Below, in pieces: positions 25,201 through 64,000 of a stretch of DNA of 64,000 nucleotides (position 1 is the first letter of the stretch; every line of letters begins with the position of its first letter). A model generated the notes under the pieces. The model was given only the letters and a program-made list of their open reading frames with translations. It was not told the origin of the DNA and did no database searches. Origin of the DNA: Lineus longissimus (lineage: Eukaryota > Nemertea > Pilidiophora > Heteronemertea > Lineidae); NCBI RefSeq assembly GCF_910592395.1, contig NC_088316.1, positions 17,856,001-17,920,000 on the forward strand, given 5' to 3'. Both the position numbers and the translations under genes were made by a program.

Positions 25201-26292
25201 AAGTCATCATTGACCTTATCATTCCAGATCTAAACTAACCATAATGAAATGGCCAGGGCCATTGTGCTCACCTCATGTGGAGGAAAGATGGATAAAGAGC
25301 ATTGTATTGTGTCATGTAGTGTTAGGTTTGATGTAGGTCCAAGCAATTACAATTTCCCCAAAATGGCCAATTTACAGTACATTCGACCTCTGTGACCTTG
25401 CAAAGTAGGTCAAATCAAAGAAGACCCGGGTGACACATCGAATGGTTGTTAGAATTAGATGTACCTATGATATAAAATTGGTGCCAATCGGGCAAGTCAT
25501 TACTAGGAATAATGGCATTTTGAAGAATTTAGGATTTGGCCCCCTCCCTGGAGGCCAAACGGCAAATCAGATTGCACCAAACTTCGATACCTGAGATCAC
25601 CTGACCAAGGGGTACATGTGTACTTAATTTGTGATCAATAGTCATTGCAGTTAAGAAACGTGCCATAGTTACGGCCTGACGGCGAATTTACGCCATTTGA
25701 CCTCTGTGACCTTGACAAGAAGGTCAAATTAAAAACCTGTGTGACATATACTGTATGGTGGTTAGATGTACCCATGATATCAAATTGGTGGCAATCGGGC
25801 AAGAAGTTAAGGAATAATCACATTTTTAAGGTTTTTGGATTTTGCCCCCTGGTGGTCAAGTGGTGAATCATATTGGACCAAACTTCAGTCCCTGAGATCA
25901 CCTGACTAAGAGGTAAATGTGTACCAAATTTGGTATGAATAGTCATTGCAGTTTAGAAACGTGCCATCGTTACATCCTAACGGCCAATTTACACCATTTG
26001 ACCTCTGTGACCTTGAAAAGGAGGTCAAATCAAAAACCCGGAGGATATATGATGCACCTTTGCTAGAAGTACCTACCATATTTTTTTCAAAATTTCCCGA
26101 CTACTATTAAGGGAGATATTGCATATTTTCACTTTTAACGTTTGGCCCCCTGGTGGCCAAACCATGAAACGAATCGGACCGAAACTTGGTCTCCAAGGTG
26201 TCATTACATAAGGGTACATGTGTACCAAGTTTCAACTCAATAGCTCTAACAGTTACGAAACGTGCCCTGCTAACGGACGACGGACGACGACG

Positions 26293-26336
<44 letters not shown>

Positions 26337-28083
26337 ACGACGGACGCCACGGTATGGGATAAGCTCACCTCTGCTAAGAGGTGAGCTAAAAACCTACCCC
26401 TTTCTCTGGCATGTTAAGGTAGAGATCCAGCAGAAAGTTGATGCGGCTAGTTGTTGTCTCATGAGTATCAGTTGGAAACATCAATTTGAGGAATGCCTCA
26501 TCCTCTATGGTGTCAATATAGATTTGACAAATCGCAGCTTGGTTGAACTTTGCAGCAATGTGCAGCGCATTGTATCGGAATGCTTCCTGAAAGATAATAG
26601 ATGAGGTTAAACCTGTGTTATACTCCAAGATACTGGAGCATGAACATATGTAACAGGCAAATACTAGCTAAGGTAAGAAAGTGAAACGCTCTGTATTCAA
26701 TACCTACATGAAGAATAACAGGTGTGTCCCCATTGCTAATCACAATGCGAGGGTTGTTCCATAGTATTCTTTTGACCTCCTCAGCTTCTCCCACCTCTAT
26801 CAACTTCATCAGATTGATTCGTTCTGCTCTTGATGGTTCTTTGAACGAGCATTTCTCCTCAGTCAGCCCTGACTTTGCAGGCGGAATCTGCTCCTGAAAC
26901 AAAACACAATAAATGACTCAATTTACAATGTACATTCAGTTGTAATCGCCTCAGTTTGGGTTTTGGATAACTTCATGACCACTAGATAGCACAAACACAT
27001 GAAGCTCAGAGGTTGATTTGGAGACCAGGCAACCTCACTTGCTCAGCCATTCAGCTACACGACCTAACAGCAGCCAAGCAAAATAATCAAAATATGTGAA
27101 CAGGCTTCAGTAGTATTCCCCAATCCCAGTTCACAACTTTCCTTACATGGTCCTGAGGCAGTGGTCTCCTTGGTGATGGGCAAATCTCCTCAGCTGGGAC
27201 ATGACAGAATCTTAAGGCATCTTCTTTGTCTTTGAAGACTTTGAATCTTGACCCCTTGAATTCTTTCATCAACTTCAGCGCATTGGCTTTGTCTCTAAAT
27301 ACCAGATCGTCTCCTGAAGGAACTATAATGATGACTAAATAAATAAATGGCTAATTCATAACACAAGGTTTCTCAGGATGGTTTTTGACTTCATCATTGA
27401 TCAGATTTCTGCTCCAAGAAATTACAATGTAGTCAGAACCCTAATTCTGATCTTGGGTGGTCGAGATATCAACACTTCCTGCCTAATGATGTTGGCACAA
27501 TACCACAAAACGTTTAACAATATTTATTTGTCCTTGAATCTGATGGTGTGTTTAAAATCAAAATGCGAGTTACTACATTCGTCACGGCACTGGTATAGCT
27601 TGAAAAACTAGACGAGTTAAAACATCTTCCTTCCAATTTTATTGACAACTTGTCAGACAGTCAGCAACTCTTATTTCATTTACCCGACAGATTTCCACTC
27701 ATAACAGCAGGTAAGCTGATACTAAAATAGACTGTGTCTGACCCTGGGTCTTGTCCATCTGCGGCATTATTATTGCGTGGTTTTGAGCAGTCATCATCAA
27801 CGACATGACTGATGCCACTGGGCCGACTGGCACCGGGAACTGCCACCGACCCAACCCAGTTGCCACCATCACAGGAAGATTCTTTGTTACTGGGATCGTC
27901 ATCATCATCAGGGTTGATCCCTCGTTCTCGCAAAATATGTTTTGCAAGCTTCCTCAGAAATAATTTTCTGAGCGAGTGCAAAATTGGGCCAACAGATTCG
28001 CCACGTTCAATCAAATGCTGTCGCAATTCACTGTCTGACAGTCTTGATATTTCATTCATAACATCCTCCATTGAGTTTTTCAT
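22221..28083 (-). CDS. ANKLE2: Ankyrin repeat and LEM domain protein 2
   Basis: Nine exons: 27684-28083, 27147-27322, 26708-26893, 26398-26586, 24591-25025, 24247-24365, 22891-24024, 22570-22701, 22221-22353. The total is 2904 nt (967 residues), against about 938 in human. Residues 5-55 form a LEM domain (LSDSELRQHLIERGESVGPI). Residues 135-175 resemble the caulimovirus/RNase H1 N-terminal-like domain (KVFKDKEDALRFC). Ankyrin repeats span about 220-350. The C-terminal block FIDGNQPTKLDLDVLRAVE and the WPSPAS tail are typical of ANKLE2. The family recruits PP2A to help BAF rejoin the nuclear envelope after mitosis. Exon 2 may instead end at 27313, using the nearby CAG acceptor in the same frame. 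Start Met1 or Met5 (28071) are both possible. Exon 7 carries an acidic, Cys-containing insert. The gene is head-to-head with VSP. Confidence 0.94.
25380..26392. repeat. Composite interspersed repeat in ANKLE2 intron 4
   Basis: Three tandem subunits begin at about 25385, 25698 and 25999 (period roughly 301-313 bp), each opening GACCTCTGTGACCTTG and containing 'CCCCCTGGTGGCCAA'-like blocks. They are followed by a (GAC)n microsatellite at about 26278-26345 and a hairpin tail, AGCTCACCTCTGCTAAGAGG then GTGAGCTAAAAAC. This end structure is one I recognise as widespread in marine invertebrate genomes. It has no coding potential. The element may reach left to the GCTCACCTC at about 25266. Confidence 0.8.
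26278..26345. repeat. (GAC)n trinucleotide microsatellite
   Basis: An interrupted GAC/ACG run. It translates as poly-Asp in one frame, but it lies inside the intronic repeat and is not coding. Confidence 0.9.
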
Positions 28084-28819: not shown

Positions 28820-33852
<5,033 letters not shown>

Positions 33853-43967: not shown

Positions 43968-46900
43968 CTATGTTTTCTTTGTTTTGTCCTTTTTGAGAAA
44001 TTTCATCGAGAATCCCTTTCTCTTTTTCTCCTTTTTTTTCCCATCGGATAGATCCAATGAGCTTCCTTCCTCCGAACTATTTTCTTCAACTGGTGTACAT
44101 GGCGGTGTCAGTGACTGTGGTTGATCGGATCCCTCCACCCGTTTACGCAATGTTCCTAAAGAACCATTCAACGTATTACTCCGCGATGCTGATCCTTCAG
44201 TGATTAATGATTCTGAACGAGTTGCCTGTAAACTTAATGGACGCCCTAGGTGACGTTCATTCTTTGTTAAGGCTGAGTCTATGCTTATTGAATGGCCAAT
44301 TGTTGGGTTGACATACTTTGAACTTGGTGATGTACTTGGTTGCTCATGTATTCCATTTTCGTGGCTGTAAATTGGAAGAAATTCAAGTTAAGTAACCATG
44401 TACACTCAAGACAAACAGACTGTATTTCAAATCCTTTAGACCATGTTCAGTTTGAGGACCAGCTGAACGACCAGGCAAGAAAAAGTGATGCATGCTGATA
44501 TTAACTTCGAGCATTAGTTTCATTCAATTCTAAGAGCATGGTCAATGATGCATTGGCAATAATGCCGCCTGTGAAACGAATATGTGGCACTCGAAGCTTA
44601 CCCATCGATAGAGAACTTCACAGGACCATCAGGTGTTGAGGCGGTAGAGCCAGCAGTACCAACACGATCCTCGGCATGGTGTTCCGTGTCTGGCCTTGCT
44701 GTCATCCTCAGGAAGTTGTCTGAACTCCTTGCAGACGTCAACGTCCGTCGGTCAAAATCTGACTGACCGAGATGCATGGAATGTAAACCTGAGAAGAGAA
44801 GTATTGGAAAGTGTATGCAACATCTTGCAGAAACATGACTGTATTCGCAGTATTCTAAAACACCTTGGTTACAATGTTTCATTGACATGATGAAAAATGC
44901 ATTTGCCTCAGTTTGACCTCATAGGTTTTGGTGAGACCACCATGAGGTGGTCGGTTGGGTTAGTATAAAACGTATCAAAGCAGGTTCTTGGTGGTGAATT
45001 ATGCCTGGAAGATATAGATCTTTGACAGAAATCTGGAATCAATTGCAGCATGCAATGGCTTTGGAACACATGCAGGAATTCAGGCAGCGTGCATTGAGCA
45101 AATTATACTCATGCAGCATGAAAGGGAATTAGGAATGTCAAAGTATTTTATAAACTTCAAGATGGAAGTATTCCACCTCTACCAATCAATCTAAACTATT
45201 TATACAAAGTTGCTTGTTTCCTTGCCAAGGCAAATGTCACTAATATACACAAGTAAATACATCTATACCAAGCAAACAATTAAGCTAGGGTGAAAGCAGG
45301 CAACGGGCACAAATAGTACTCCTATAAGAGAAAGCAAGGATACTGAGAAATAGATTTTAATGAGACTAGGAGGAGAAGTGCATGCTTCCGTCGGCCATCA
45401 CTGAACTAAAGCAACCAAATCCATGTGAACGTACGCTGAAGAAACACATCTGAAAGTGTACATAAACAGCTAGTAGAACAAATCAACCAGTTGTCCTGGT
45501 GGAATAACTGTTGGTACAATAATTCACAATTAGCGATACAACGCCCCTCATTGGCCTGGCGCTCCAGTGACAACCTTATCTTTTCTCCCAAATCAGAGCT
45601 ATCCTTTATGCCACACAGGCAAATAACTTAGTGAAATGATTACGCATGCAGTTTACAAACAAAATATTTACAGCAGGTTATATACACATAGGAAGAAAAC
45701 AATTGATAGACATTTGATTCCCTTCGTCCTCCCTTACGCTAGTTTCTACATTTTAATAAACTTTACTACCCAACCATTTTTACCGTTCCATCTACTAAAT
45801 ACCCAGTTAGCTTAAAACTCCTTCCCTGGTGTTAAGATTAGGAATCGAAATGTATGCAAAGGTGCAAGACAAAGCATAGAATACGTCTTTACCTGGTGAA
45901 GATGGATTAGTCGGAAATCTGCTTGGTATATTTTTGACAGGGCTGACTCTGCTGTTAATTGCGGCATTTGTGGGATTTAAAGTTTGACTAGGAACAATAT
46001 GCCGTGACTGGGCCGCTTTTGTTCGGGCCCTGGCTTTAATGCGATAGCTCGTAGCGTACATGGCGGCTAGATTCGGAAAGAAAAACCATAGCAAATGTGT
46101 CAGAAGCAGGACAAACATGTGGTTTGCAAACATTCCAAAAGTTCTGTGTCAGTGGTCTCCCAGCTAACTTTTCCCAAGAGCTGTGAAATACTTCAATAAA
46201 CCACAACCAGGAATGGGTGTCTCATGACATGATGTTACAGGTTGGGCCGAAAATCAAATCATGTTGAGAGAGGATGGAAACATTCGCTCCCATATCTCTG
46301 AAAATTATTGATCACACCAAGATTTTCTTGGATTCTCTTCTTTTGTTTCCAACAACTCTCTCTCAACATATCGAGTCAACACAACTTTCTTAATTGGAGC
46401 ACCACAAACACAGAAAACTGGAAATGGTATCATATACAGACATTATTTGTACAGTTAGTGACCTAGACCCTACATGACCTACCACCAGAGCATGGAATTA
46501 TGATGAACGTTTGACGACGTAAGACATGCACACAGGAATACCAAAAATGGCTGAATTGAGCTGGGATAAAACACTGTACTGCAGCTATGTCGGAAGGCCA
46601 TGACTGCAGTCCACCAAAAGTGTCACAGACTGTTCACCAAACTCCTTCAAGAATATTGTTCCAAACCTGTTTTCGAATGGATAGAGGATGGGCGTCTCTG
46701 TGAGGCTATGTCTTGCGTCAAGAAACCTTCTGCAGGTATGCAAATAGTCGGGAGAGAATGAATGGGAGGGGCAAAGTAAAAGATCAGTTTCTCTCAAAAA
46801 GATGGAGAGTGACCACATTTTGCACAAAGTTGCAGGGCGACTAAGCTTCTCACAAAGTTTGAGAATCACCAAATTCAAATTCTGTTTGATGTACAAATAC

Positions 46901-49900
46901 CAATTTGAGTTTTTCAAACAGAAACTGGCGCTCTCCACTTCTAGATTACCGGTAGCGAATGAGAAACGGAATCTTTTACATCCTCCCATTATGGCACCGC
47001 CTTCGTTGTTTTACCTGAAAACGATGCATGATGTCCTGGATGTGTAAAGGACTTGTTCGGTTTAAGGCCCTGATTTCGGCCAAGTTGTGAAAGGACAATT
47101 GGTGCTACAGGAGAAATAACTTTTTATTATGAAGGCTTGACAGAGCACGAAGGCATAAGGAATCTTGCTCCACAATTCTCATAGGCAATTTGCTATGTTT
47201 AAGTGAAGAATATGGTATTAGATTTCACATTCTTTCGAAAACCATGACCGGCAAAACATATTGGCCCACCTCTCTGTATATATCATTGAGAAGAAAGAAT
47301 ATAGACAGATTCAAATAAAACTGTAGCACACCTAATCCTAGTGTGTAAAACCGTCCATGTTTCGCTGGTTCACTCGGCGCGACCTTGAATGGTGGTGACA
47401 TCTCGTCATCGGCATCGTCAATGGACAGCAGATTAGAAGCGCTCCCTCGTACCGAACCTGAAAGCATGGCATGATAGAAATAAACTTCAACTTGGTTTCT
47501 GATATTCCAACAAAGAAGTGTTAAGCAGAGAACATGACACAACCATACACTTCACACATAACAGCAGCAGCACTCCCAAGACCATCCATATACACATAGC
47601 AAACGAGACGTCTTACAAATAATTGGGAGTTTATTTCAGAGCTAGATACACATTTTCAAGATATACAATCGGATGGCCATGCAAGCAAAATGAGCTTTGT
47701 CACTGGGCTTTTGTTACATGTATATACCACTGGAATCCACTCCAAATGTTACAACACTGGTTATATTACTGGCTTTATTTACAAACGGAAACCCTTAGGA
47801 ACCCCCTTAGTGCGGATGAGCATCCACGGTAATACAAGTACCATACTATCGGGTTCTCTTGAGGTGACTCTGCTGGGCAACTTAATTTTCACAGAGCTGT
47901 CTTCTGATCTCAGAAAACTAAGCCTGAATTCATTACAAACATTACGTGGGTTAAAATATTCTTAACATGGTCTAAAACTATCCATTGAGGGAGAATCAGC
48001 AACTGTAGAAGAACCCAAATGAAAAACCAAAATATTACAGCTAAACCCATCCCTCTGCACATCTTTGAGTGGATGTAGCCCTAATCAAGGAATTATGAAA
48101 GAATTTACAGCAATGTCAAATTGTCATCATAAACTGAGCTGAGCATACTACCGCTCGAATCCATCCGTGAAAAAGAAGTTTTCTGAGGGGAAGAATGCGA
48201 CGAGTTATTCGAGTCCAGTTTAGAAAGTGAAGTATTCCTTGGAAATGCTGAAGACAAATTGAGTTTCTCTAAAGATGTACGCGATAGATTTTTTTGCATT
48301 TGCAAGTTTGTCCGTTGTCCAGGATTTGACTCGAAAGATTGGTTTCTAGGCATCCGTTTTCGTAATGTCTTGTCGCGCCACAGACTGGCACACTGTCGAA
48401 CGGTTGGAGTGTAGCCAAGTTGGTTTTGAGATCCTAATAAAGAAGAAGGAGGAGGTATGAGAGGGCAAGAAAGAAGTCAAATCTAGAATGCAACCTGCTT
48501 CAGAGGTCAACAAGTGTTGTCTGCTTAGCTGTAAGTGTAAGGTGGAGTTTTTGAATATTCCCCGAGACAGGTTTGATGTGAATGGACTTAGAAACAAGCC
48601 ATCTAGAGAGTGTTGCATTATCTTATTATAACATACAAAAATACTTTTTTAGCAACCTTAAAATAAAACGGAAACTAAGAGTTCCATAATGCTGAACAAA
48701 AGCAGCCAACTTAATAAGATAATTAGTGCAATTAACGACGTTTGATTTTCCACACACACAGTCAATGAACCAGTGAATACAACACAGAGAATCACAGTCT
48801 GGTGTCAATACAATGTATGCCATCATGCACCTAGTCGCGTAAGTGAGTGAGGATGCCAGGTCACTTTAAACATCAGGGATTCTTCTTATAACCAAAATCA
48901 TTTGCCAAGTGTAAGTATGGTATGTGTTCATGTACATTTGTGAGTTACTGGAGTAAATATCAACGTGAAAGTTTAATTGGGTTAGTAGGCCTGAATTGTG
49001 AAAGTATGTCTAAGAAGGCTGCATGCACTGCACAACATGGTTCATGCATTACATTAGTGGGACAAATAAACAACCAACCGAGAAAAAAGCATTTCTCCTT
49101 TTTGAAGATATTCCAATGGAAATGGGAGAATGGATCCAAAGACCAAATTGACACCTTAGAGGTTGACCAGGGAACGAAAAAATACTAGAGCCAGAAAAGA
49201 CTGGAATGTCAAGATCATATTAGTATGGGTTTTGTTGACACATTACATGCAAATAGAGCATATTATCTATGTATACCCGATCGACGCATAATCATCGGAG
49301 ATGGTGACGATCGCGAGGGAGTGATGCACCTGCCTGACGGCCTGAGGTAACTGCTTTTATCCTCTTCCTCGTCATCGAAGAATTGCAAAGAGCCTGAGGT
49401 AATGAAGATGAACGGTATGAGATAAGACTGCCATGGAGGTAGCATCTTATGCAAGTTATTGAGGATTGAACACTGATGTAATTGGGCTGTCTATACATGG
49501 GCCAAAAGGCAGACTAGTGGCAGAGTGGTTTATATACAGCCTCTGGGGGCAATGTGAAATCATGGTCCTACGATACATACCACATCACACATACGCAAAA
49601 CACTCACTGGGTGAAGCATAATGACTCTATAGTAACTTCCAACTAGAGCCTAACATCCATGCATGCAAGTAAGTCACTAGAACCTCTAGAAACTGACCGC
49701 CTACAAGTCAACCACAAAACATCCCTATCACACACAATTTACCCTTTTGCTGCAGGCGACACGCATAGGTTGTTATACCTATAATTTCATTTCATCAACA
49801 TTTGGCCGCAGCCTCTAAAGATGCCATTTGCACTGAACAGAAAACTTTAGATTGATCGAATTACTATAGATGGCAACACTTTGAATTTCAGTTGCTCATT

Positions 49901-52900
49901 TAGAAAAAAGCAAGTGATAATAAGCACTGTTACCCACTGCTCAGCACTGGCTGGAGCAGGCTGAAAAATGGCTTCTGCAGCAAAAGGGTTAACACAACAT
50001 CGCTGCATCACAATCAAACTATTGGTAACATTCACGGTACGTTATAGGTTTTTTCTACAAAGCAGAAGGCAGTCTGAAAATGAGAAAGGGCAGTTTCACA
50101 TGTCTGAATGTGATGCACAACATTGTACGTCTACCATACTGTGAACTGACAAATTTTCGTCGGTGTTCAGATTTCACCAAAAAATATCAATTCATGTAAG
50201 TGAAATTGGCAGTTTACAGTAATAACATCACAGTGAAGACAGTTTCTCAAACTTCTGACTCACACAATGCATACAAATGCCAAAATGTTAGTAAAACCAG
50301 AATTTTAACCAAAAAGTAAACTATATTTTAGACAAGTTTGGTTCATATAGAGGCCAGGTCTGGTCTTGAAGCTGTTACCTACACTATAACACATGTGTGG
50401 TGCATAGAATTAACACTGGTGCCACTTGTGTTGCAGAATATAAACATGTATAGCACAAGTTCATGGACCGACCTGGCCTTTGAAGCAGTTCAGCACAAAG
50501 TTCTGCAAGTTTTTTCTCCTCATGATTACACAATATCCGCATAGGTTTAAAACAGCATAGCCCAGGTCCAATACAAAGGAAGCATGACCACTATCATTTC
50601 AGTTTCATTTCTAAAAACGAAGTAAAGCGATATGGAGAGGAAAAATACTATGTTCTCCTCTACGTTAACTTGAATATCTCATTATCATCATTCGAACTTC
50701 GGGTCAAGCGTCCAGCACTAGAGACCTGGACTCAATGTAACACCCTTACCTTGACTGCCAGCACAGGATATGGAAGGGGCTGGGGGCGATGCACAAGAGT
50801 CACGCAGGGCTGGCTCCAGGATACCAAGGCCCGGGTTGCTCGTGATGGGAAAAGCACACAGAACTTCTATTTGACGCCACCGGTGAAGACGTTCTTGTAA
50901 GTCGTAGCGGACTTCCTCAAGTGCTGCCCTAAAAGGGGAAAAATCTTCATCAAAAAGGGTAATAATATGAGAAAAACAACAGATGAAAATAGACAAAACC
51001 AAAAAATGAGCAGTCAGGAAAACATTTTACCACAGACGTTTTCAGACATTTCCAAGACCTGTCAAAGACACAGAAATTTAAGTGAATTAACAAGGCCAGA
51101 GGCTGGCACTAAACTGACAGCATTCACATCTCCTAGTACTATTTGTTCTGGTTAAAACGCTGTTGATTGATATATTAAGTTCCTATGTACACTTGGCATC
51201 ATACATGTCATTAATAGAAAGTATCACCTGAACATGAAAAATTGAGTTCACAATAAAGGATGACGCAAGACAGAATGAACAGTTTTTTCTTTTGATAAAC
51301 ATGCAAAATAGAGGGCCAAAACTGGAGAGGTATGAAAACTTACTTCGACATGCAGGTTTTGATTCACAATAACAACACAACACAAGATATTTGTGCAAAA
51401 CACAGAAACCTTTAAAATAGAACAATAGGTTATAATATGGGAGGGACCAGCAAAAGCATGCTGCTGTGATCTTAAGCTGTATCTTCAAGAGTTATTCAGC
51501 ACACACAGATGCATAATATACACAGAGGAGAAAAAATATTTCGAGCCTTGAAGGCAATTGCTAATTCTACTCCACCGTGGCCAAGGAGGGGACACATAAA
51601 CTACATATAGGAGAGTATAAGCTACCTGGCTTCAGTAATACGTTTATCTACGTCGTCAAAAGCACCGCTATGAGCCATGCGGAATGGGGCCAAGAATGTC
51701 CCACGTTTTTTCCTGATTTTATCCCACTGAAATTGTACAGGATGGATTGGTTGATGAAGGGAGGAAAATGAACACGATCCCACCAATAGAGCAGACGTGC
51801 ATTTTGATGAAACGGTTAGTGTGATGCACAAAGCCTGCTCCCTGCCTTGAGTAATGAATCATTTGCATGAATTAGTAAAGGATGTTCCATGAATTAGCTC
51901 TTCAGACAGGGGCGACTTTTGTTGTCAATTATAGGACAGAGCAATTGTCACAAGATGGAGCTTGATCCAATGGTGCCATTTGTGTCAGAACTGACTTTAT
52001 CTCCAGGTAAGCTGTACATAGTTCCTGAAGTCCAACCTAGGCTAGGTCACCTGAGCCTTGTTCTATCGGCTATCTGAGCCACTCAATCCTGCATGAGGGT
52101 ATAATTCATGGAACAGATTCAATTCACCAAAGAACCTGAAAATGAACTGAAATCGTCACAGATTAGTAATTTACAGGACTACACTTACAAGTAGTTTGAT
52201 ATAGAGAGAGGCTCAGGAAATTCTTGTCAATCAAAGGTTAAATGTACATTTCAATCCTTTTTTATCCGAGTCGTGGCAGGCAATATGAGTTATATTGCTC
52301 AATGTATTCCTAAACCTCTCTCTTCAAAGAAACAGTGTGCTAGGTTAGAGACAGACAGGTGACACACATGGACTGGCATACTATGACAAAGTAAGCTAAG
52401 AGTAGCTCGCCTTACAGGTCATATCATCACAGGATTAGCTTTGTTAGGAAGAACATGTAATGAATGGTTATATAATGGACAGTAGCATTGGTCAGTCAGG
52501 CTGCGTCTCACAGGTAACCCAACACTCATGGTGAAATAGCATACTCTACTGTCATTTTTTTCACAGGGGGATTTATTTTCATGAAGTTTGCAAATAACTG
52601 TAAGGCAGTCCACTACTGTAGCATGGACTCCAGTGATGTTATTTCTAGCTTTAGTTTCAATACCTATTGGGATTAGGAATGGAATGGTCCTTTTCAGAAC
52701 ATTAGAGAAATCCAAGAATTAGGCTCATGACAAGACCACATACAGAAATGTGATTAACGAGACACATCGACTCCCAGGCATTCATAAATCCCATTATCAT
52801 TATGGAAGAAGCTAGTGGCTAATTGAAACTGCAGCCTGGCTGAACCACGCCCACCATCACATTTGACCTTGGCCTTACCTGGCTTGTAATATACGTTGAT

Positions 52901-55900
52901 CTATATCATCAATACCATTACTGTGAGCTAAACGTAACGAACCAAGAAACGCATTGCGCTTTTTCCTTAACTTTTCACACTGAAAATAGCAAATTGGAAT
53001 TTGCCAAGATTTGTGCTAAAGTTTGCTTTTAATTTCAATGCTTGCTCTCAGCAACGGCATATGTATTCCTTGCTCTATCTTCCAGTGAAAAAGGTAGAAA
53101 GATGCATGCAGATGCAAGCCATGTGACCAACAGTTTGGGTTTATCTAGTAAACATCAAGTGACACTGACAACATCACCATGAAAACAAGCAATTACACCA
53201 GTAGAGGTCATGCAAATCACATCATTTCAGCAAAAAAGTCCCGATTTTGGACATCAATTTATGTCACTGAGTAACTTGGTACACTTTGCCATCGGTGCAA
53301 GAATGGCAGTAGTGAAGTGTGACGACGTCAACCAAGATGTCTGCATGTAATCCACCCTGTGAGCAGGGTCTAGGATGTCGGGAGCTGTGTAACTATCAGG
53401 TACATGTAAACAGCATTTAATTAGAACACCAGATTGAAAATAAAGCAGACTGAAGACAAAAATATTGTAGAATTTGGAATAAGTACATGTATGTAGTTGC
53501 CCAAGGAAATGAGAACATATCTTCAGCCTAGTTGTCAGGCAAAGCTATAAAGTAGAGCCATGGAAATGCGACAAATCTAGTACTTTTAGGTTGATTTGAA
53601 CAAGACTTAATGTGGCAAGCGAAGTTTCAGCAGTAGTGGCTCTGTGTGGTTGCCAGTGTTTTTTAAGTTGTCTTTCTGACATCAAACAATAGTCTCTTTG
53701 CTCTTATAACTTGACTTCTCAATACCCACCCCATCTTTTGCAGTCAATAACTGTTTTTCAGCAGCAACTTTCTTCTGCTCATAATGTTTCAGCTCTATTT
53801 CATAGGTGAGCTGTAACCACTGTTGGAGATCACTCGATGGCAGAAACTGGTTGTCCTCAAGTTGTCGTTCTGCTTGCAGCAACAGACCTCGTAACTGAAA
53901 ACGTTAAGACAATAATAAACTTCTAATTATAGTTCTCACAAGTGCAATGCACCCTCAGATGAACAGATTTTAACTACGTATCTTGTAAAATGTAGTTCTC
54001 ACAAGTGCAATGCACCCTCAGATGAACAGATTTTAACTACGTATCTTGTAAAATGTAGTTCTCACAAGTGCAATGCACCCTCAGATGAACAGATTTTAAC
54101 TACGTATCTTGTAAAATGTGTTGCATTTCATTACAATTAGCATTTAGCTCGGTGTTAGCCTAATCTAGGTAATGACAACTTTTGAAAAATGGCCAGAATG
54201 GCTTTTGGGTGAGAATCTACTTACGTGGTCAATTTCCTCCTCCGCTAGTTTGAGACGTCCTATTTCACCATCGGTACTCTCTCTCTGTTCCTTCAGACGA
54301 AACGCTTCTCTCTGAAAGTGGAATAAAGATTTAGAATGCAATCCAACTTCTTGGTTTTTTACATCGTTGTCACCATGAAATGGGGAAGCTAAGGGTCCTA
54401 CGATAGCGGGAAACTCAACAACTTAAACTACCCGAACCTTTGTTTCTTCAATCTCATTCTTCATCTTCTTCTCTAGGCTCAGCTTCTCCTCACGCACAGA
54501 CTTATGTTCCTCCTGAGCTTTCGAGAGTCTGTAGGAAAAAAAATTACCATGTCAGTTTTAACTTCAAAACCAACATTCCCTTCTGGCAGCAACTGAAGCA
54601 CCCATTATTAAAACCCCTCGGCCTCAAGATCGAGCAGAATACTTGACATTATGCCTGGATTGATTAAACTGACAAAAAAAGTCATTTTTATTGACCCAAA
54701 CTCTGCTCAATCAATGATGTAATGTTGCTGCTACCTTTTTCTCTCTGCTCAATAACAATGACAAGAACAAACAATTATACCTGTTAGTGTCACATGTCTG
54801 TACAATTTCCTTTAAAATCAGAGCCATGAAAATAATGGGGTTGACAGTAGTTCATTTCAAAATCAAATAGTGCACAGAGAAGGACAATAAAACTTACTGG
54901 TGCTGCAAAGTTGATAATGAATCTTCTGCTTTCTGTAATACATCCAGATCTGACATCATTTTCTTCAGATGGGACTGAGCATTTTTGTGTTGGATGTATG
55001 CAAACCAGCACCCTGCCATCGCGACAAAGAGTGAGGTCACTAGAATCAGATCCTTCATGTAACTGTGTGGCTCTATAAAAGGGACAAAAATAAGTCACAC
55101 AGTGTCACGTCCGAATTACAAGTGCCTGAGAAAGGGTGATCAAACACAGATATGGTGGGAGAAAAAATCCTGCACACAGTTCATACCATTGAAGATAAAT
55201 TGAATAATAAGAGTGAAAAAAATCTTGAGCATTCCCGAACGCGATGAAAATGTTATTCTTTTATCACTATCAGCATCGTGGCCTGAACCCCAGAGTGAAT
55301 TATCTAACCAACTATGATATAATAATGTGATAGCATAGATGTACATGTACCCCAAAACGTACACCACCACATTAGCACATTTCTGGCCTCCAAGGTGACA
55401 GCACCCCCATCAAGCTGACCATCTGGTTTTCACAACTTGAAGTCATTCAAACTCTCATACATTATGGTTAAGAAAGGTGACCCCTGGAGTTCCAGTACTT
55501 ACTTTTTGGGGGACCAAATAAAACAACATCCATGGCTTTAAGTGTGAGTTTTTGTTTATGGACGGGATTTCTGATGCCAAGAACTGTAGTCATGTAGCTG
55601 TTAGTGTTTACTGCAATTCTGGAAAAGATGAAAAGATTTTACAATAAACACCACAACAATTTAAACTAGAGCCAGTCTAATTTCTTCTGTGTCCTCAGTT
55701 GCTTGCAATAACAGAGGGTTTTTCACTTGATGACAACAGATAGACATTATTTTAAACACACACCCAACCGATGTATGCATGATTTGAAACCGTAATTTCA
55801 AGCAGTTGTACGAACTGAACAGCAATCTATCACAATTAAAGTCGTTATTATCATTATCATTTGGCCTTGAGTAACAACTGAATATACAGTACACACATGT

Positions 55901-58900
55901 CAGTGTTCTCGCCAGGATTTCAATCAAATGGGGCACAGCTGGCCGGAGGCCAGCTCCTATATGCGCCTGTGGCCCATTTTTGGTGGGGGGGTCCGGGGGC
56001 CCTCCCCCGGCAAAAATTTTGAAACCTAGATGCTCTGAGGTGCAATTTCAGGCCTAATTCTGATGATATAAAACGACATTGCAGCGTTAGTATCGTAGGC
56101 AAAACATTTTGCTTCACGGCAATTTGCGGCGTCACGTCGGTCGGCGGGAGGGACGCATGGCGGGGTATCCACGTAAATACTAGTATTCAAACCGTTACAT
56201 GCGCAGGGCTGTTTACTTGTACGTTTCAACCGTATTTTGTACGTTTTCCGATGTTTGTGCACCGCTGTACGGTCGGGTACACTATATTATACGGAGAGAT
56301 AAAAAGTTGTGTTTGTACGGGCACTCAACATAAAATAACCACCTGAAGACAGTTTATACGATAAAAAAGTGAAGTTGTACGAATAAAAAATTCACTGGTT
56401 CCAAAAAAAGTTTTTGATCCCCCTTGGCCTTGCCCTCCCCGCTTGCTCCCCGGACCCTGACATCGTCAAAGCACATGGTAGGCCTATTTTGTAACCAGAT
56501 AGCGGCGCCAAATATAGATGCGCAGTAGCCAACTGCGCATCCCGCAGCCCGCGGATGCGCAGTAACCAACTGCGCAAGCCCTGTGCTTCTTCATGATGAC
56601 ATGATGATGATCGACGCTTCTATACATGTACAAGGTTTACTTTATAAAAAATTTGTAGAGGCCTTCTTCTCGTTTGATCCCGTTGTACCCTGTTTATCAA
56701 TTGAAAGAGACTGCTGATTTTACGCCGACAGCTATTATCATCCACCTGCGGCACACCTGCAAGCACTCTTTTGACATAATTGAAAACAACCGCCCCGCTC
56801 TGCCGCTAGCCGATCGTACAGGTGCGCTTTTGTCCACTCCCTTGACCTCGAAGCCAAGGCTACGGGTGATTGTTATTGGCCGACCGTCATCTGCCGGAAC
56901 ACGTGGATAGTAATGGTAGTAGGCCCTACTGCTGTACCGGGTAATTGAGATGGCTGGCAGTCGTGTTGCGGTGGGATAATGATCGTTGAGTGACGGCGGA
57001 ATGTTATTTGCGATATTTACGGCTGTGTTTGTGTAACTATTGGCTGGGATTTAAGCATGGCGGGGGTAAATTTAAAGAGGGCGGCTGCAAATTTAACAGG
57101 GCGGGCTAATTTTAGACGGGGCGCATTTTCACTGCTCAAATTTAAACGGGGCGCCAGCGCCCCGTTTAAATGGCCTGGCGAGAACACTGCATGTTTAGAC
57201 CACTAACCAGGAACTTTAGAACATAAAGATACATGTCCTACAGTGCAAGGTATTAATGTCGGTAGAAAATAAAGGGTCAACACAACCATAACAGGCTAAA
57301 TATTAGTTTAATATCAAATGGGGGCAGTGTCACTTTCAGCAGAACTAAGAAGTACATGTAGTGCAATTATACATGTAACTCTTTTAGTTTTAAATCTTCA
57401 ATTGACATATTCAAGGCCAGGCACTTTTTAGAGAAACTTTGGAGTGGTTGTTGGGAGAAAACCCAGTAGTTCATGCAAAAATGTACATGCACACAAAATA
57501 GGAAATGAACGGGTCTTTATCAATGGGGACACAAAACCAGAATATGGGTCTTCATCTACCCTGGAATGTTAAGAACTGCAAATCTGAAATATGAATTCAG
57601 AAGAAATGTTTGTATTTATCGGTTTGCATGGGACTTGATTAATTTTGTTCACAATTTATCATGTTTCGTACGCATCTACCAATTGAAATTCTTTTCACTA
57701 GATTATGGTTTATTTTTCCAAGTTAAATGAACCTGAACCCAACCAGTGCTCATTCAGTATTCCTGTCCGTGATTGAGTAGTGAATGTATGATTCACGCAG
57801 ACACACATGCCGTGTTCGTATTTTGATAACATCCCTTTGAAGGTTTCTTGAAGCAAATCTATTTTTAAACCTCTCAAATTGTTTTTGAATTGATCACCAA
57901 TATCTCACCTTGGTAATGCTGCACCATCAACATTATTCTGTTTGAAAGCCTCAGCATACTGTGCGAGTTCAACGTGGACTAACAGCCAATCCAACGCGTC
58001 ATCCGTCGTCCAGTTGTGAACTGAAACAAGACAGAGATTAACTTAAGACATCTTCTTGGGAAGCAATTCTCAGTTACCACTGGGCATGGCCTCTATGTCG
58101 ATGACTCGTCCGGATCATGAAGATTGAAATTAGGTCCTTAAGAAAGTATCTACACTAAGGCTTGAAATTGGATTTTTTGTTTGAGTTGCAATTTCAAAGA
58201 TTTGGTAGAAAATTTTGTGGAAACACAATACGTTATCGTAATCCCACAACTTACCTTCAGACTTTTTCCAGAACTTCCAGAGTTCATCGCTTGTGACATG
58301 TGTATCGTCTCCATGGAATGTTGTATGACGAGATCCATCGGTGTATTGGAGCTCTTCCCTTAGAAACTGAAAAAGATATAAAAATGCCATGGAACACATT
58401 TTTACCAAACGAGAATCCGAAAAGTGACCAGCACAGATTGGATTTTTCTTCCTTTTTACAGGTGGGACCAATCAGGTTAACTGGTATAAAAATTGCCCTG
58501 TCCTTGGCAAAGGAGTCATGTCTACTGACGACTGTGCACCAAAATTTGATGGACAACCAAGGAATGAAATCAGCAGATAGATAGATCTGCTGGTTTATTC
58601 AATCCTTTTGGTTTGGATGCAGTAAAACGCAACCATACTTCGTAAAGCTGCATGATACTATGTACATTGTAATGTTATGATACATTGGAAAATGGAAGGA
58701 CTTTCTCATTATGATGTAGGCCTATGTGTTAGGACCAATTTAATATCAACTTTTCATGGGTAATTTACATCAATATTGCAATGTGATCCAGATCACCCAC
58801 TGACCGACATCCACCCCTAAAAATTCTAGGCCTAACCACAAAAATCAATATTTAATCATCACAAAGCACTTTATGATGTTGACTATAATGATAATGACAA

Positions 58901-61900
58901 ATGATCTATTGCTAATACATTGGACAATGTCTGAAGATGATTTGAAAAAGTAGGGAACCAAATGTATTGATAAGTGATTTATCTAGGAAGTGCCCTAAGA
59001 ACCCGGCAAAACACTGTACAATCATCTAACATCCGACACAAATCCATTATTCCAGAGAGAATTCTAGCAATACAATCCATCTGCATTTGCTGGCAATCTA
59101 CAATCAGACAATAAAATTTGACATTTGACCTTTCGAGAAGTCGTAGACATAGATTCAATCTTTATTAATCCCTATTACTGCGCCGCTGGCGATGGAACAA
59201 TTTCATTACGCTTGGGTCCAGGTTAAAACAAATTGCTTTCAGAAGTAAAATTCACATCTTCTACATGCAACATTCATTAGTCTTTTACAAAATGCAAGAG
59301 TCAGCTACCAGTACAAGATGCAAAATAACCTGTTCAGGCCTATGAAATGAATAGTTGCCTATCAAAACACAACTTGTCATGGCAATACAGAGAGGGGTAG
59401 GCTACACCAAATCCACTTCTGAGCAAATATAACTACCTGAATTTACTTGCTAAATGATATGCCCTATCAGTATTCAGTACATACTGTAAAGATCAGTAAT
59501 AATATCTCACCTTGAGCAGTTCTATAACAGTCAAAGTGACAGGTCAAATTCCCTTGTACATGTATATCAATTGATTTCCCAAATTAGACATGGAATTGAA
59601 CTATAACAGTCAAAGTGACAGGTCAAATTCCCTTGTACATGTATATCAATTGATTTCCCAAATTAGACATGGAATTGAACTATAACAGTCAAAGTGACAG
59701 GTCAAATTCCCTTGTACATGTATATCAATTGATTTCACAAATTAGACATGGAATTGAAGGTGTCAATTACTGAGATATGCCCCGGGTCATTCTGAGGTAA
59801 TTCCATCCGAACCAATTGAGCTGAACAGATTTTTTTAATTGGCTCATTATTAATATTAATCCTTGGATACATGTATGTGTCACAATGGTTGTCATATCAC
59901 ACAAACAACTTGAAGAGCATTGGTATGTACATCTGAACATCTTGCACATACATACAATCATGTTACTTGTACATTTTTTATATCCAACCTCATGGCTCCT
60001 ACTGGTAGCCAAGCAGGTGGCCCTGTCTCAGGACTGTCAGGGTAAAACAAATGCAGTCATTCATGGCTTTTTTTTATTACAAATTTGAGTGGCTGATATT
60101 TTGATAATAGTAGCATCTGATAAAACAGACCAATTCTTTAAAGGATTGACTCATACACAAGATATATTTTTACCTCATCACTCTCTGATAAATCGATAGC
60201 ACCACTATGATCATCATCAATCTGGCGATGGAGTGCAGTGATTGAATCATACTCGACGCGCTCTTTATCACAGACTTTATCACCAGCAGCACACGGTTCT
60301 GAAAGTAGAACAAGAGCAATGATACTTCTCACTATTGAGTAAGATCTGTTTTACCAAATTACTCCACCAAGGATGGAGCTAAATGCTGGTTAGAACTTAG
60401 TCATTGTCAACCTTGCAAACGTCTTTATAACACCACACCCAACACTTCATTCAGCCAGAATGCCGATACATCATCAACAGGTACAATCTGATCGATATTG
60501 TCCCCGCCAATGCCTCTATGATGACATTATGTCGGAGACGTTTTAATGATAACCAAGACACTTTAGCCTTTATGGTACATTTGTAAATTGGCAATGTTGA
60601 TGACTACAGATTTATTGTCGATAAATATTCACCATACTATAGATCCATGCACTTGATTGGGACCAACGTTTATGAAAACGTCGCGTCTCGTCACGTTTAC
60701 AGTAATGTAAAATGCATGGTGACGTGACGACGGCCAACACTACGTCATGTAAACGTTGTTCCCAATCAAGTGCATGAATCTATAGTACTAATACTAGTAC
60801 ATGTATTTTGTGACATACATCTTATAATACGAACTGCACTGTTTTCAGTTCCTTACAGGGACTCATATTTCAAACTACCACTTTAAAATGTGTAACATAG
60901 TGGTTAATTCGACCTCGTTTATGTCATTACTATGTCCACTTCCACTCCAGAGGCTTTGGTTTCAAATGTCCACCACAATTGGATGTGCAACATGCACATA
61001 GTAGATGTAACAGGTGGTGTACATGTTGATCTGGTACAATACACTTGCTGAACCTATAGTCCTTCTATCACACTTTAAAATATCTCAATTTATCACAGTG
61101 TGAGAATACATACGTAACATTAACAATGATACTTGGCAGACACACTATGTATGGAGTTTTCAAGCATTATCATTTTTTATCAATATCAAAATTGGACTAG
61201 GCCACAATGCCTGCATAATCCTTTCTCAAAATATTTACTACCTAGACCAGGTATTAAGTGGCATAAGAAATACATGACGAAAGATTTAAAAGTACTGTGG
61301 CAAAACTGAAGTCTTTGATGTATATTGTAAAACCAGACTTTCTTGTGCTCGTTCCTATTTGAAAGACCAAGAGACAGGAAAGAAGTGGAGAGATTCAGGT
61401 GTGGACTAATGAAGAACCATAAAGTCAAGTATGTATGAAAGTGGCAAATCTTTCAATATACAATTTCTAAAACAGGTTCAGCAACAGGAGATTCAGAAAC
61501 TACTCTTTTGTTAAAAATCTGTCCACTGTGTCCATGGTTACAGCTGCTCACTGCTCTTTGACATTTCTTGCATAGCCTACACCTTAGAGATGATTCCTAT
61601 TGACCTGACTGAGCCACAGTTTATCTATGATTGCGATTCAGCAAATATCAGGTGGAGATGCAATAGGTTATTGATCAAATCTTTGATCGCAAGTCCATCT
61701 GCTGAGGAGCGATAGCACAAGGCATTTTATTGGATTAACCCTTTTTCTCATTGATTGGACCGGCGCCCCGACGACTGCGCAGCATTGCTTAACGTTGTGC
61801 GATATTGTATCGCCACGGCGTGAGAGGGTCTGCGTTGTATCGCCCACTTTTTAATGGAAATTAAGGTCATGACGTGAATTGTGATACAACGCAGAAGTGG

Positions 61901-62199
61901 TGATACAATATTGCGCAACGTAACATGTACTGTAGACGAAGCAGTCGAAAACTAACTCACCCGACGTTAGGCCTAGTGCAGAACATAAACTCACACCGTT
62001 GACAAACATTGTATTGATTCAACTTACCCTTTAGTTTTTCTCTCGTGCTGCCTTTGGCTTTACCAAGAGGAACGCTGTTCTTATTTCCAACATCAGCACA
62101 GGAATAAAGCACAAAAACACAAGCTGTCAGAAATAAACATTGAATGGAGGCCCTTGGCCTTTGCCAGCAGGTCCTGATGAGAGCCCCCATTTCATTCAC
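43968..62199 (-). CDS. STIM: Stromal interaction molecule, ER calcium sensor
   Basis: Seventeen exons per transcript: 62028-62199, 60174-60298, 58255-58366, 57909-58020, 55503-55618, 54898-55072, 54438-54528, 54225-54311, 53730-53894, then 52879-52979 or 51626-51726, 50750-50928, 49277-49393, 48152-48433, 47332-47457, 45893-46066, 44602-44788, 43968-44364. The product is 905 residues. A signal peptide (about 1-35) is followed by the conserved luminal Cys pair (C60, C67). The EF-hand loop DDDHSGAIDLSE (85-96) has all calcium ligands. A SAM domain (about 138-205) precedes a single TM helix (221-239, LILVTSLFVAMAGCWFAYI). CC1 leads to the Orai-activating CAD/SOAR with LQQWLQLTYEIELKHYEQKK and LQERLHRWRQIEVLCAF. 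An acidic patch FFDDEEEDK follows, and a Lys-rich tail (GFSMKFLKKDKTKKT) ends the protein. Exon 7's donor is an unusual GTTCGG, and exon 13's is GTAGTA. Introns hold a TIR transposon, two perfect triplications and MITEs. Head-to-head with SRA1. Confidence 0.95.
51626..51726 (-). CDS. STIM: STIM alternative exon 10b (CAD/SOAR variant)
   Basis: This 101-nt exon is flanked by a TTTCAG acceptor and a GTAGCT donor, the weaker of the pair. It enters in phase 0 and leaves with two bases (AG) to complete Arg with exon 11. It encodes residues 386-419 as WDKIRKKRGTFLAPFRMAH then SGAFDDVDKRITEAR. It is homologous to exon 10a, with 18 of 34 positions identical, including the basic RKKR and the DD.D helix start. 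It aligns with the part of vertebrate STIM1 SOAR around Phe394. Length and phases make it exclusive with 10a in any in-frame transcript. Confidence 0.92.
52879..52979 (-). CDS. STIM: STIM alternative exon 10a (CAD/SOAR variant)
   Basis: This 101-nt exon has a TTTTCAG acceptor and a strong GTAAGG donor, with the same entry and exit phases as exon 10b 1152 nt downstream. It encodes CEKLRKKRNAFLGSLRLAH then SNGIDDIDQRILQAR. Differences from 10b cluster at the tip region corresponding to STIM1 residues about 392-398: N-A-F-L-G-S-L here, against G-T-F-L-A-P-F in 10b. A Cys in place of Trp also opens the exon. Confidence 0.92.
53931..54119. repeat. Perfect 63-bp triplication in STIM intron 8
   Basis: AGTTCTCACAAGTGCAATGC starts three identical 63-bp units at 53931, 53994 and 54057. 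The array begins 37 bp from exon 9, on its acceptor side. Confidence 0.95.
55901..57189. mobile_element. 1.29-kb TIR DNA transposon in STIM intron 4
   Basis: Both ends carry the perfect 16-bp inverted repeat CAGTGTTCTCGCCAGG. The flanks share CATGT (55896-55900 and 57190-57194), a likely 5-bp target duplication. Inside are a GGGGCGCCAGCGCCCC hairpin near the right end and paired GATGCGCAGT/ACTGCGCATC hairpins at about 56516-56575. Only short open frames are present, so the copy is non-autonomous. The superfamily cannot be settled from ends alone. Confidence 0.85.
59522..59758. repeat. 79-bp triplication in STIM intron 2
   Basis: CTATAACAGTCAAAGTGACA starts units at 59522, 59601 and 59680. 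The units are 79 bp and almost identical (one C-to-A change in the third). Confidence 0.95.
60636..60786 (+). mobile_element. MITE copy A in STIM intron 1
   Basis: Inverted ends ACTATAGATCCATGCACTTG and CAAGTGCATGAATCTATAGT bound a 151-bp element. Inner inverted blocks (ACCAACGTTTA / TAAACGTTGTT and CGTCACGT / ACGTGACG) extend the palindrome. It is nearly identical to 63837-63986 in the same orientation. Confidence 0.9.
61788..61925. mobile_element. Palindromic MITE in STIM intron 1
   Basis: AACGTTGTGCGATATTGTAT and, on the other arm, ATACAATATTGCGCAACGT form inverted repeats, with a second inner pair CTGCGTTGTATCGCC / GTGATACAACGCAG. The element is about 138 bp, with no coding sequence, and ends roughly 100 bp from STIM exon 1. 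Confidence 0.75.
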
Positions 62200-62603: not shown

Positions 62604-64000
62604 ATGGCAGAAACCAGACCTGGTGAGTTGGCAAGAAATTTCACCAATTTTCTCCCATTTTTTCGCCTAAACCGCTAATAAAACCTTCATGAGTGTCGTA
62701 TAGGCAGGCAGAAATGTGAGGGTGGGTGGGGCAAAGTAATTCAGTCTAACATCCATCTGTCGTTGGCAGGAAACCATGAGAGGGGCTGGAATGACCCACC
62801 TGTAATCTTACACAACCCATCAGCTGAAAACAGGACTCCAAAGAAAAATTTATTGAACAAGCGAGTCGCCTATCCTGCTGGCAGTAGTGGAAGTGGAACT
62901 GTGAATCAATCACCTGGTAAATATATCCAATTTCTTTGTGCTGCCTGGCATCCAGAATGTGGGGGCCAAAAGTCAATACATTTTATCAATCAAGTGCTGT
63001 ACATTTCATTAATCATTTTAGGTTCTGTCTCATGAAATGCGGTAATGTTGATTGTTGCGTCATGAAATCTCAAGATGAACAGCTTGTTGGATCTTTATAG
63101 GTTGAAATCATAGCCAATGGTTTTTTTCTTCTTCAGGACCAGGACCAGGCTCTAACAATGCTAGTACACCTCCCACTGCTCCTACTCCTGGTACAGTCAC
63201 ATCACCTGGACTGCCTCAGTCATCACCAGCCCCACCAAAACCTGCTGTATTCTCGCCAGCATCCAACAGTACCAGCATTTCCACGCCAAAACTGCCAGCA
63301 AACAGCAATATTGGGGATGAAGTAGAAAAGCTGGGAACAGTTTTGGAGAAATTGGAGGAGATTCAAATTCAGTTAAAAGTAAATTACATTGACATATTTG
63401 CAAAAGTTACAAAGCTCATCCTTCAATACGCCTTTATCTCCTTTTGTAAACTAATCGGCGGTTATTGACTTGTACACCATACACATCTCTCTTTCACTTC
63501 TCATTAATGTTATATTTCAGCCAAGAGTGCAAGCGGATATAAAAAAAAGATTGACCATATTCCAGGAGTTTTGGAAAGATGGGAAAATTTCAAGTCATGT
63601 AAAATTAAAGATGATGGCTCTTGCACAAGGTAAATGATCAAACTGCAGTGGTTGTTGCAATAATGCTTCAGAGATTGCTCCAGTATCTCAAAGATTCCTC
63701 CTGTAATTCCTAAGTACATTGTAAACAAGCTGAATAGAGAGGGCTGAATGGCTTTCACTAGCTGCCCTCCAAAATATCCCCCCTCCCACACACACACACA
63801 CGCTGCCACACTGATCTAACTTATTTACATATACATACTATAGATCCATGCACTTGATTGGGACCAACGTTTACGAAAACGTCGCGTCACGTCACGTTAC
63901 AGTAATGTAAAATGCATGGTGACGTGACGACGGCCAACACTACGTCATGTAAACGTTGTTCCCAATCAAGTGCATGAATCTATAGTGAGGATTGATATGT
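62604..64000 (+). CDS. SRA1: Steroid receptor RNA activator protein, 5' part
   Basis: Four exons are visible: 62604-62622, 62770-62916, 63137-63378, 63521-63629. The last ends in a GTAAAT donor, so the gene continues past the window. The protein begins MAETRPGNHERGWNDPPVI, matching the SRAP opening (PGNxERGWNDPP), followed by LLNKRVAYP, a Pro/Ser/Thr-rich linker (GPGPGSNNASTPPTAP), and the start of the C-terminal helical bundle (LGTVLEKLEEIQIQL, then VQADIKKRLTIFQEFW). SRA1 orthologues are transcriptional co-regulators whose RNA can also act without translation in mammals. Splice phases agree throughout. The remaining helices lie beyond the window. Its fourth intron carries MITE copy B. Confidence 0.92.
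63837..63986 (+). mobile_element. MITE copy B in SRA1 intron 4
   Basis: 150 bp with the same inverted ends and interior as 60636-60786, differing at only a few bases. Non-coding. Confidence 0.9.

Follow-up and report, generated by a model that had tools for sequence, protein, structure and literature searches.

Introduction

STIM proteins are believed to contact and open Orai through the apex of their SOAR domain, where the role of residue 394 is still disputed. The locus described here raises the question of whether an animal with a single STIM gene may obtain two versions of this apex by splicing. It lies in a 64,000-nucleotide stretch of the genome of the nemertean Lineus longissimus (RefSeq assembly GCF_910592395.1, contig NC_088316.1, positions 17,856,001 to 17,920,000 of the forward strand), hereafter the window, to which all coordinates below refer. 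A first-pass annotation of the window had described two homologous, mutually exclusive exons in the Orai-activating domain of a STIM gene, and had proposed that splicing may switch the strength of Orai gating, one gene thereby doing what vertebrates do with two. In this paper, we report an analysis of the gene model, the history of the two exons, their place in SOAR and the signals that may control their choice. The reading that we favour, and consider likely, is that old duplicate exons are used singly, swapping SOAR residues 380-413 (human STIM1 numbering) and giving two STIMs that differ in clamping and in Orai opening.

A STIM gene with two versions of exon 10

A complete STIM gene runs along the minus strand, starting at 62190 and ending at 43968. 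Its exons, joined at GT-AG borders, give an open frame of 932 residues with either exon 10a or exon 10b, in which the sole stop is the terminal one (902 residues without the tentative exon 15). Within the first 475 residues of both isoforms, the Pfam models EF-hand_STIM1, SAM_2, SAM_1 and SOAR all exceeded their cut-offs, SOAR reaching 134.6 bits with 10a and 127.8 bits with 10b; a FUT8 match under its cut-off was taken as chance. The EF-hand, SAM and SOAR were thus assigned by Pfam, and the signal peptide, membrane segment and coiled coil 1 by eye. In each isoform the SOAR part matched two PDB sequences only, 3teq (human STIM1) and 3ter, which we take to be the STIM protein of C. elegans. With a luminal EF-hand and SAM, a membrane segment, SOAR and a Lys-rich tail in a single frame, the protein is identified as a STIM, for which sensing of ER Ca2+ and activation of Orai are predicted.

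The exons and introns around the pair are as follows.

53730-53894, minus strand: exon 9, shared; start of SOAR; last residue Gly, equivalent to human G379; donor GGG followed by GTGGGT
52980-53729, minus strand: intron between exons 9 and 10a, 750 nucleotides (nt), TGCATG twice
52879-52979, minus strand: exon 10a, 101 nt, phase 0 to 2; human STIM1 380-413; Leu394, His398, Ile402
51727-52878, minus strand: intron between exons 10a and 10b, 1152 nt, no TGCATG
51626-51726, minus strand: exon 10b, 101 nt, phase 0 to 2; human STIM1 380-413; Pro393, Phe394, His398, Phe402
50929-51625, minus strand: intron between exons 10b and 11, 697 nt, TGCATG twice
50750-50928, minus strand: exon 11, shared; remainder of SOAR; holds the early stop when both exons 10 are skipped

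Exons 10a and 10b stand in tandem 1152 nt apart, each exactly 101 nt long with AG before it and GT after it. In the full gene model exon 9 exits in phase 0 and either exon 10 in phase 2, as the first-pass annotation had stated, and the two are hence neighbouring homologous exons of equal phase with proper splice sites. Their peptides agree at 18 of 34 residues, again as first counted (the codon shared with exon 11 included), and their DNA at 63 of 101 nt; the ungapped BLOSUM62 score is 100, whereas 20,000 shuffles gave scores that averaged -31 and reached 20 at most. The numbering given at first pass, residues 386-419, needs correction: the segment covers residues 383-416 of the gene model and 380-413 of human STIM1, the latter numbering being anchored on 382-KIKKKR-387 (PMC6267984). 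The earlier claim that inclusion of both exons or of neither breaks the frame holds: joining both brings a stop within 10b at codon 442, and joining neither brings one in exon 11 at codon 386. The frame, the equal phases, the selection on each copy (see below) and these stops together make a strong case for mutually exclusive use, and the exons are very probably used as alternatives in transcripts.

Each mature STIM mRNA would accordingly run from exon 9 through 10a or 10b to exon 11, and errors that include both exons or neither would meet a premature stop ahead of several junctions, so that nonsense-mediated decay would probably remove them. The same early stops are what a productive/unproductive switch would exploit, in which regulated inclusion or skipping of both exons lowers STIM through decay; such a switch needs no two diverged, selected versions, one skippable exon being enough, and we regard it as very improbable.

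Age of the duplication and selection on both copies

The third codon positions of 10a and 10b differ at 21 of 34 sites and the second positions at 5 of 34, and the same codon is used for only 7 of the 18 shared residues. Nonsynonymous divergence (dN) was 0.31-0.34, and synonymous divergence (dS) was saturated by the NG86 method or about 2.5 by maximum likelihood, a rough value from only 102 nt. In neutral simulations with an equal number of nucleotide changes, at least 18 identities without a stop were retained in 20 of 20,000 runs that started from 10a and in 9 of 20,000 that started from 10b. No similarity beyond that of shuffles was found between the flanks of the two exons, in 200 nt on each side or in the whole introns. 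With synonymous change close to saturation, a conserved protein and introns that are unalike, the comparison points to an old tandem duplication of which both copies have apparently been kept as protein.

A recent duplication was rejected, the exon flanks being no more alike than shuffles. The same result, with only 63 of 101 nt alike between the exons, makes it scarcely credible that one exon was assembled twice through an assembly or haplotype artefact.

A single STIM gene

The first-pass annotation had spoken of a single-STIM animal, and the genome supports it. A 72-residue SOAR query against the animal's own assembly (391,118,348 bases in 30 contigs) gave three matches and the Pfam SOAR model gave four, all of them within the gene described here, so that neither search found a second STIM gene in the 391-Mb assembly. 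A third copy of exon 10 was found neither when the window was scanned in six frames nor among these own-genome matches.

The alternative segment within SOAR

The segment encoded by either exon 10 comprises the end of helix alpha-1 with the basic patch 382-387, helix alpha-2 (residues 393-398; PMC8558294) and a downstream part that includes residue 402. The first-pass placement in the Orai-activating domain, including the Phe394 region, was therefore right. Position 394 is Leu in 10a, as in STIM2, and Phe in 10b, as in STIM1, while His398 is common to both. At position 402, a reported Orai contact, 10a has Ile and 10b has Phe; further differences are Asn in 10a and Gly in 10b at 388, Ser and Pro at 393, and Cys and Trp at 380.

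Human STIM1 matches each exon at 16 of 34 residues, and 12 columns are identical in all three sequences. Matches to STIM1 unique to 10a fall at 381, 388, 392 and 410 and those unique to 10b at 383, 389, 394 and 405. By BLOSUM score 10a is the closer of the two to human STIM1 (98 versus 84). Neither exon is STIM1-like overall, and the likeness of 10b to STIM1 rests on position 394.

These positions have been studied in vertebrates. F394 and H398 have a role in Orai1 binding and in relaying the gating signal, the STIM2 counterpart of F394 is Leu485, and Drosophila STIM is described as having the Phe-His pair conserved (PMC10616141). L402 pairs with Orai1 E166 at a gating interface (PMC7795233). 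A further determinant of the STIM1/STIM2 difference in clamp and coupling is G379E, and in SOAR constructs the clamp tended to be weaker when G379 was replaced by a side chain larger than Ala (PMC6267984). For F394L, lower efficacy had been found in earlier work by the group of PMC10616141. Leu versus Phe at 394 should, on this published work, be expected to matter functionally, though the sign of the effect is not settled.

Control of exon choice

Splice sites were scored with a small leave-one-out matrix built from the gene's own exons. The donor of 10a reached 11.2 bits, the strongest of the 18 scored, and that of 10b 5.0 bits; the acceptors scored 7.2 and 6.4 bits. In view of the gap between the donors, one may speculate that 10a is the default exon and 10b the regulated choice. 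The scores also bear on whether there is one working exon, probably 10a, with the other rare, relict or very restricted and of little importance. Exon 10a has the best donor, a slightly better acceptor, the higher SOAR score and the higher BLOSUM score to STIM1, all of which would suit that explanation. However, 10b is open, its protein is conserved against both 10a and human STIM1 in the 12 shared columns, its donor outscores those of four other exons of the gene (7, 12, 13 and 14), and the simulations make neutral drift unlikely; we therefore consider a single working exon improbable.

As to how joint inclusion might be prevented, the 1152 nt between the exons rule out a short-intron steric block, and U2/U12 incompatibility is not supported, as neither an exact U12 donor nor a U12 branch word occurs in the three introns. 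Competing RNA pairing was assessed by a crude method, and whole-intron duplexes were no stronger than those of Markov shuffles, of which 22, 9 and 37 of 60 were at least as stable.

Ten classes of splicing-factor motif were counted across the three introns. The word TGCATG, which we take to be an RBFOX-type word, occurs twice upstream of 10a and twice downstream of 10b and is absent between them; its excess has P = 0.017 for the two outer introns, a post hoc choice, and P = 0.07 for all three. GCATG occurs three times downstream of 10b (P = 0.023) and ACTAAY three times between the exons (P = 0.043), both values being nominal. Given the many counts made, the excesses of TGCATG, GCATG and ACTAAY are leads only. 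It may be speculated that the outer layout of TGCATG could be used by an RBFOX-type factor favouring 10b, the excess being weak and post hoc.

What the swap may change

The choice of exon would swap residues 380-413, with the flanks of the basic patch, the alpha-2 apex and residue 402, and would leave the Ca2+ sensor, membrane segment, clamp helix and tail constant. With 10b the apex would carry a Phe394-His398 pair as in STIM1, and with 10a a Leu394-His398 pair as in STIM2. The most likely outcome would be two STIMs unlike in the clamping of the apex at rest and in Orai opening, and we judge it somewhat probable that the swap affects Orai coupling or clamping.

Several observations weigh against this reading. 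Sixteen residues differ between the exons, so that a lone F/L match with STIM1 and STIM2 could be chance, and C. elegans STIM likewise aligns Leu at 394 in the PDB match. The differences show no significant excess at 388-402 (9 of 15 positions versus 7 of 19 elsewhere, P = 0.16), nor is there significant clustering at the Orai face when it is taken as 392-402 or 393-398. In over 40% of cells, full-length STIM1 with F394L formed puncta spontaneously (PMC10616141), in conflict with other papers: F394L and L485F retain Orai1 binding (PMC6267984), and activation by F394L was largely unaffected, the current being nearly doubled in HEK293 cells and not in STIM1/STIM2-null cells (PMC8558294). The direction of the F394L effect is thus disputed between laboratories. 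Motif counts and whole-intron pairing across the three introns gave no convincing splicing-control element. Pattern searches for relatives of the exon peptides in bacterial/archaeal and viral collections returned 129 plus 225 matches, none of which was confirmed, as was to be expected.

The spread of the 16 differences over all 34 residues would also suit exclusive exons whose swap mainly tunes, in place of Orai gating, the SOAR dimer, the clamp formed with coiled coil 1 or some other partner, Leu or Phe at 394 being incidental. The Cys/Trp difference at 380 adjoins G379, where larger side chains tended to weaken the clamp (PMC6267984), and F394L by itself alters resting behaviour as well (PMC10616141). 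Yet the differing positions include 394 and 402, each reported as a site of Orai coupling, and we think this explanation rather unlikely.

The earlier proposal that one gene does the work of two fares unevenly. The Leu/Phe alternative at 394 agrees with it; the contrast between G379 of STIM1 and E470 of STIM2, however, is not reproduced, since the residue is a Gly encoded by the shared exon 9 and present in both isoforms, and the differences are not significantly concentrated at the Orai face. It is possible, and we put it forward tentatively, that a spiralian exon duplication reached the same Phe/Leu alternative at the apex as the vertebrate genes, splicing providing a tightly clamped, strongly gating form with 10b and a looser form of basal activity with 10a, perhaps with mixed dimers for graded store-operated Ca2+ entry.

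Comparison with known systems

A close parallel is that of vertebrate STIM2.1 and STIM2.2 (PMC4411291), in which splicing inside SOAR/CAD likewise changes Orai coupling. There the cassette exon 9 adds an eight-residue insertion that can be omitted in frame and that prevents Orai1 activation in STIM2.1, whereas in Lineus 34 residues are replaced; judged from the correspondences of L373 to A and A376 to Y, the insertion lies about eight residues upstream of the Lineus segment. Vertebrate STIM1 and STIM2 show the same Phe versus Leu at the apex (F394 and L485) with His398 kept, but they are the products of two genes and are also unlike at G379/E470 and in luminal Ca2+ affinity. The Lineus isoforms come from one gene and, unlike STIM1 and STIM2, have a common luminal part and Gly at 379 in both. 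STIM1L, STIM1A and STIM2.3 are splice forms too, but their altered part is C-terminal to SOAR (PMC7795233), and the term mutually exclusive is absent from the main text of that review. A skipped-exon event is recorded for stim1b of brown trout (PMC9204890), and STIM1 is listed among alternatively spliced genes in mule muscle, with the type of event unstated (PMC7341310). A parallel in principle comes from an unrelated protein of Ca2+ handling, where exchange of an exon alters a key functional site, namely how many Ca2+ sites CBD2 has.

The first-pass annotation knew of no exclusive exon pair at this point in STIM, and the literature searched, which included few subscription papers, contained no report of such a pair in STIM. 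The gene model points to a likely mutually exclusive pair at a functionally loaded place in SOAR.

Remaining exons and neighbouring genes

The other exons of the gene are listed below; exons 1-9 span 53730-62190 and the tail exons 12-18 span 43968-49393, the boundaries of the latter having been picked by frame and GT-AG.

62028-62190, minus strand: exon 1
60174-60298, minus strand: exon 2
58255-58366, minus strand: exon 3
57909-58020, minus strand: exon 4
55503-55618, minus strand: exon 5
54898-55072, minus strand: exon 6
54438-54528, minus strand: exon 7
54225-54311, minus strand: exon 8
49277-49393, minus strand: exon 12
48152-48433, minus strand: exon 13
47332-47457, minus strand: exon 14
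47015-47104, minus strand: exon 15, tentative
45893-46066, minus strand: exon 16
44602-44788, minus strand: exon 17
43968-44364, minus strand: exon 18, Lys-rich tail end

Exons 12 to 16 (117, 282, 126, 90 and 174 nt; 45893-49393, minus strand) are all multiples of three in phase 1-1, and each could be skipped in frame, unlike the exon 10 pair with its phases 0 to 2. Three-copy tandem repeats lie within introns of the gene at 53930-54119 (63-nt unit, 100% match) and 59522-59758 (79-nt unit, 99%), and are probably recent given how closely their copies match. Two alike copies with inverted ends, noted by eye at about 60640-60780 in intron 1 and 63820-63990, are possibly a small DNA transposon.

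A gene on the plus strand at 62620-63468 stands head to head with STIM; its peptides resemble what we take to be SRA1 (steroid receptor RNA activator protein), with no Pfam match for the two frames searched. An ANKLE2-like gene occupies 22887-28083 on the minus strand, with the Pfam LEM domain at 27676-28080 and the ANKLE2 third domain at 24585-25058. On the plus strand, 31029-32756 reads like what is presumably a voltage-sensing phosphatase of the TPTE/VSP type and 18772-19155 like what is presumably RFC3; neither was confirmed by Pfam, which gave no match for the three frames searched from these two regions.

Conclusions

An animal that swaps solely this segment of SOAR would offer natural chimeras in which clamping may be separated from gating. 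If both isoforms are used, Lineus longissimus would show that a division of labour of the STIM1/STIM2 type can arise inside a single gene, independently of the gene duplication of vertebrates.

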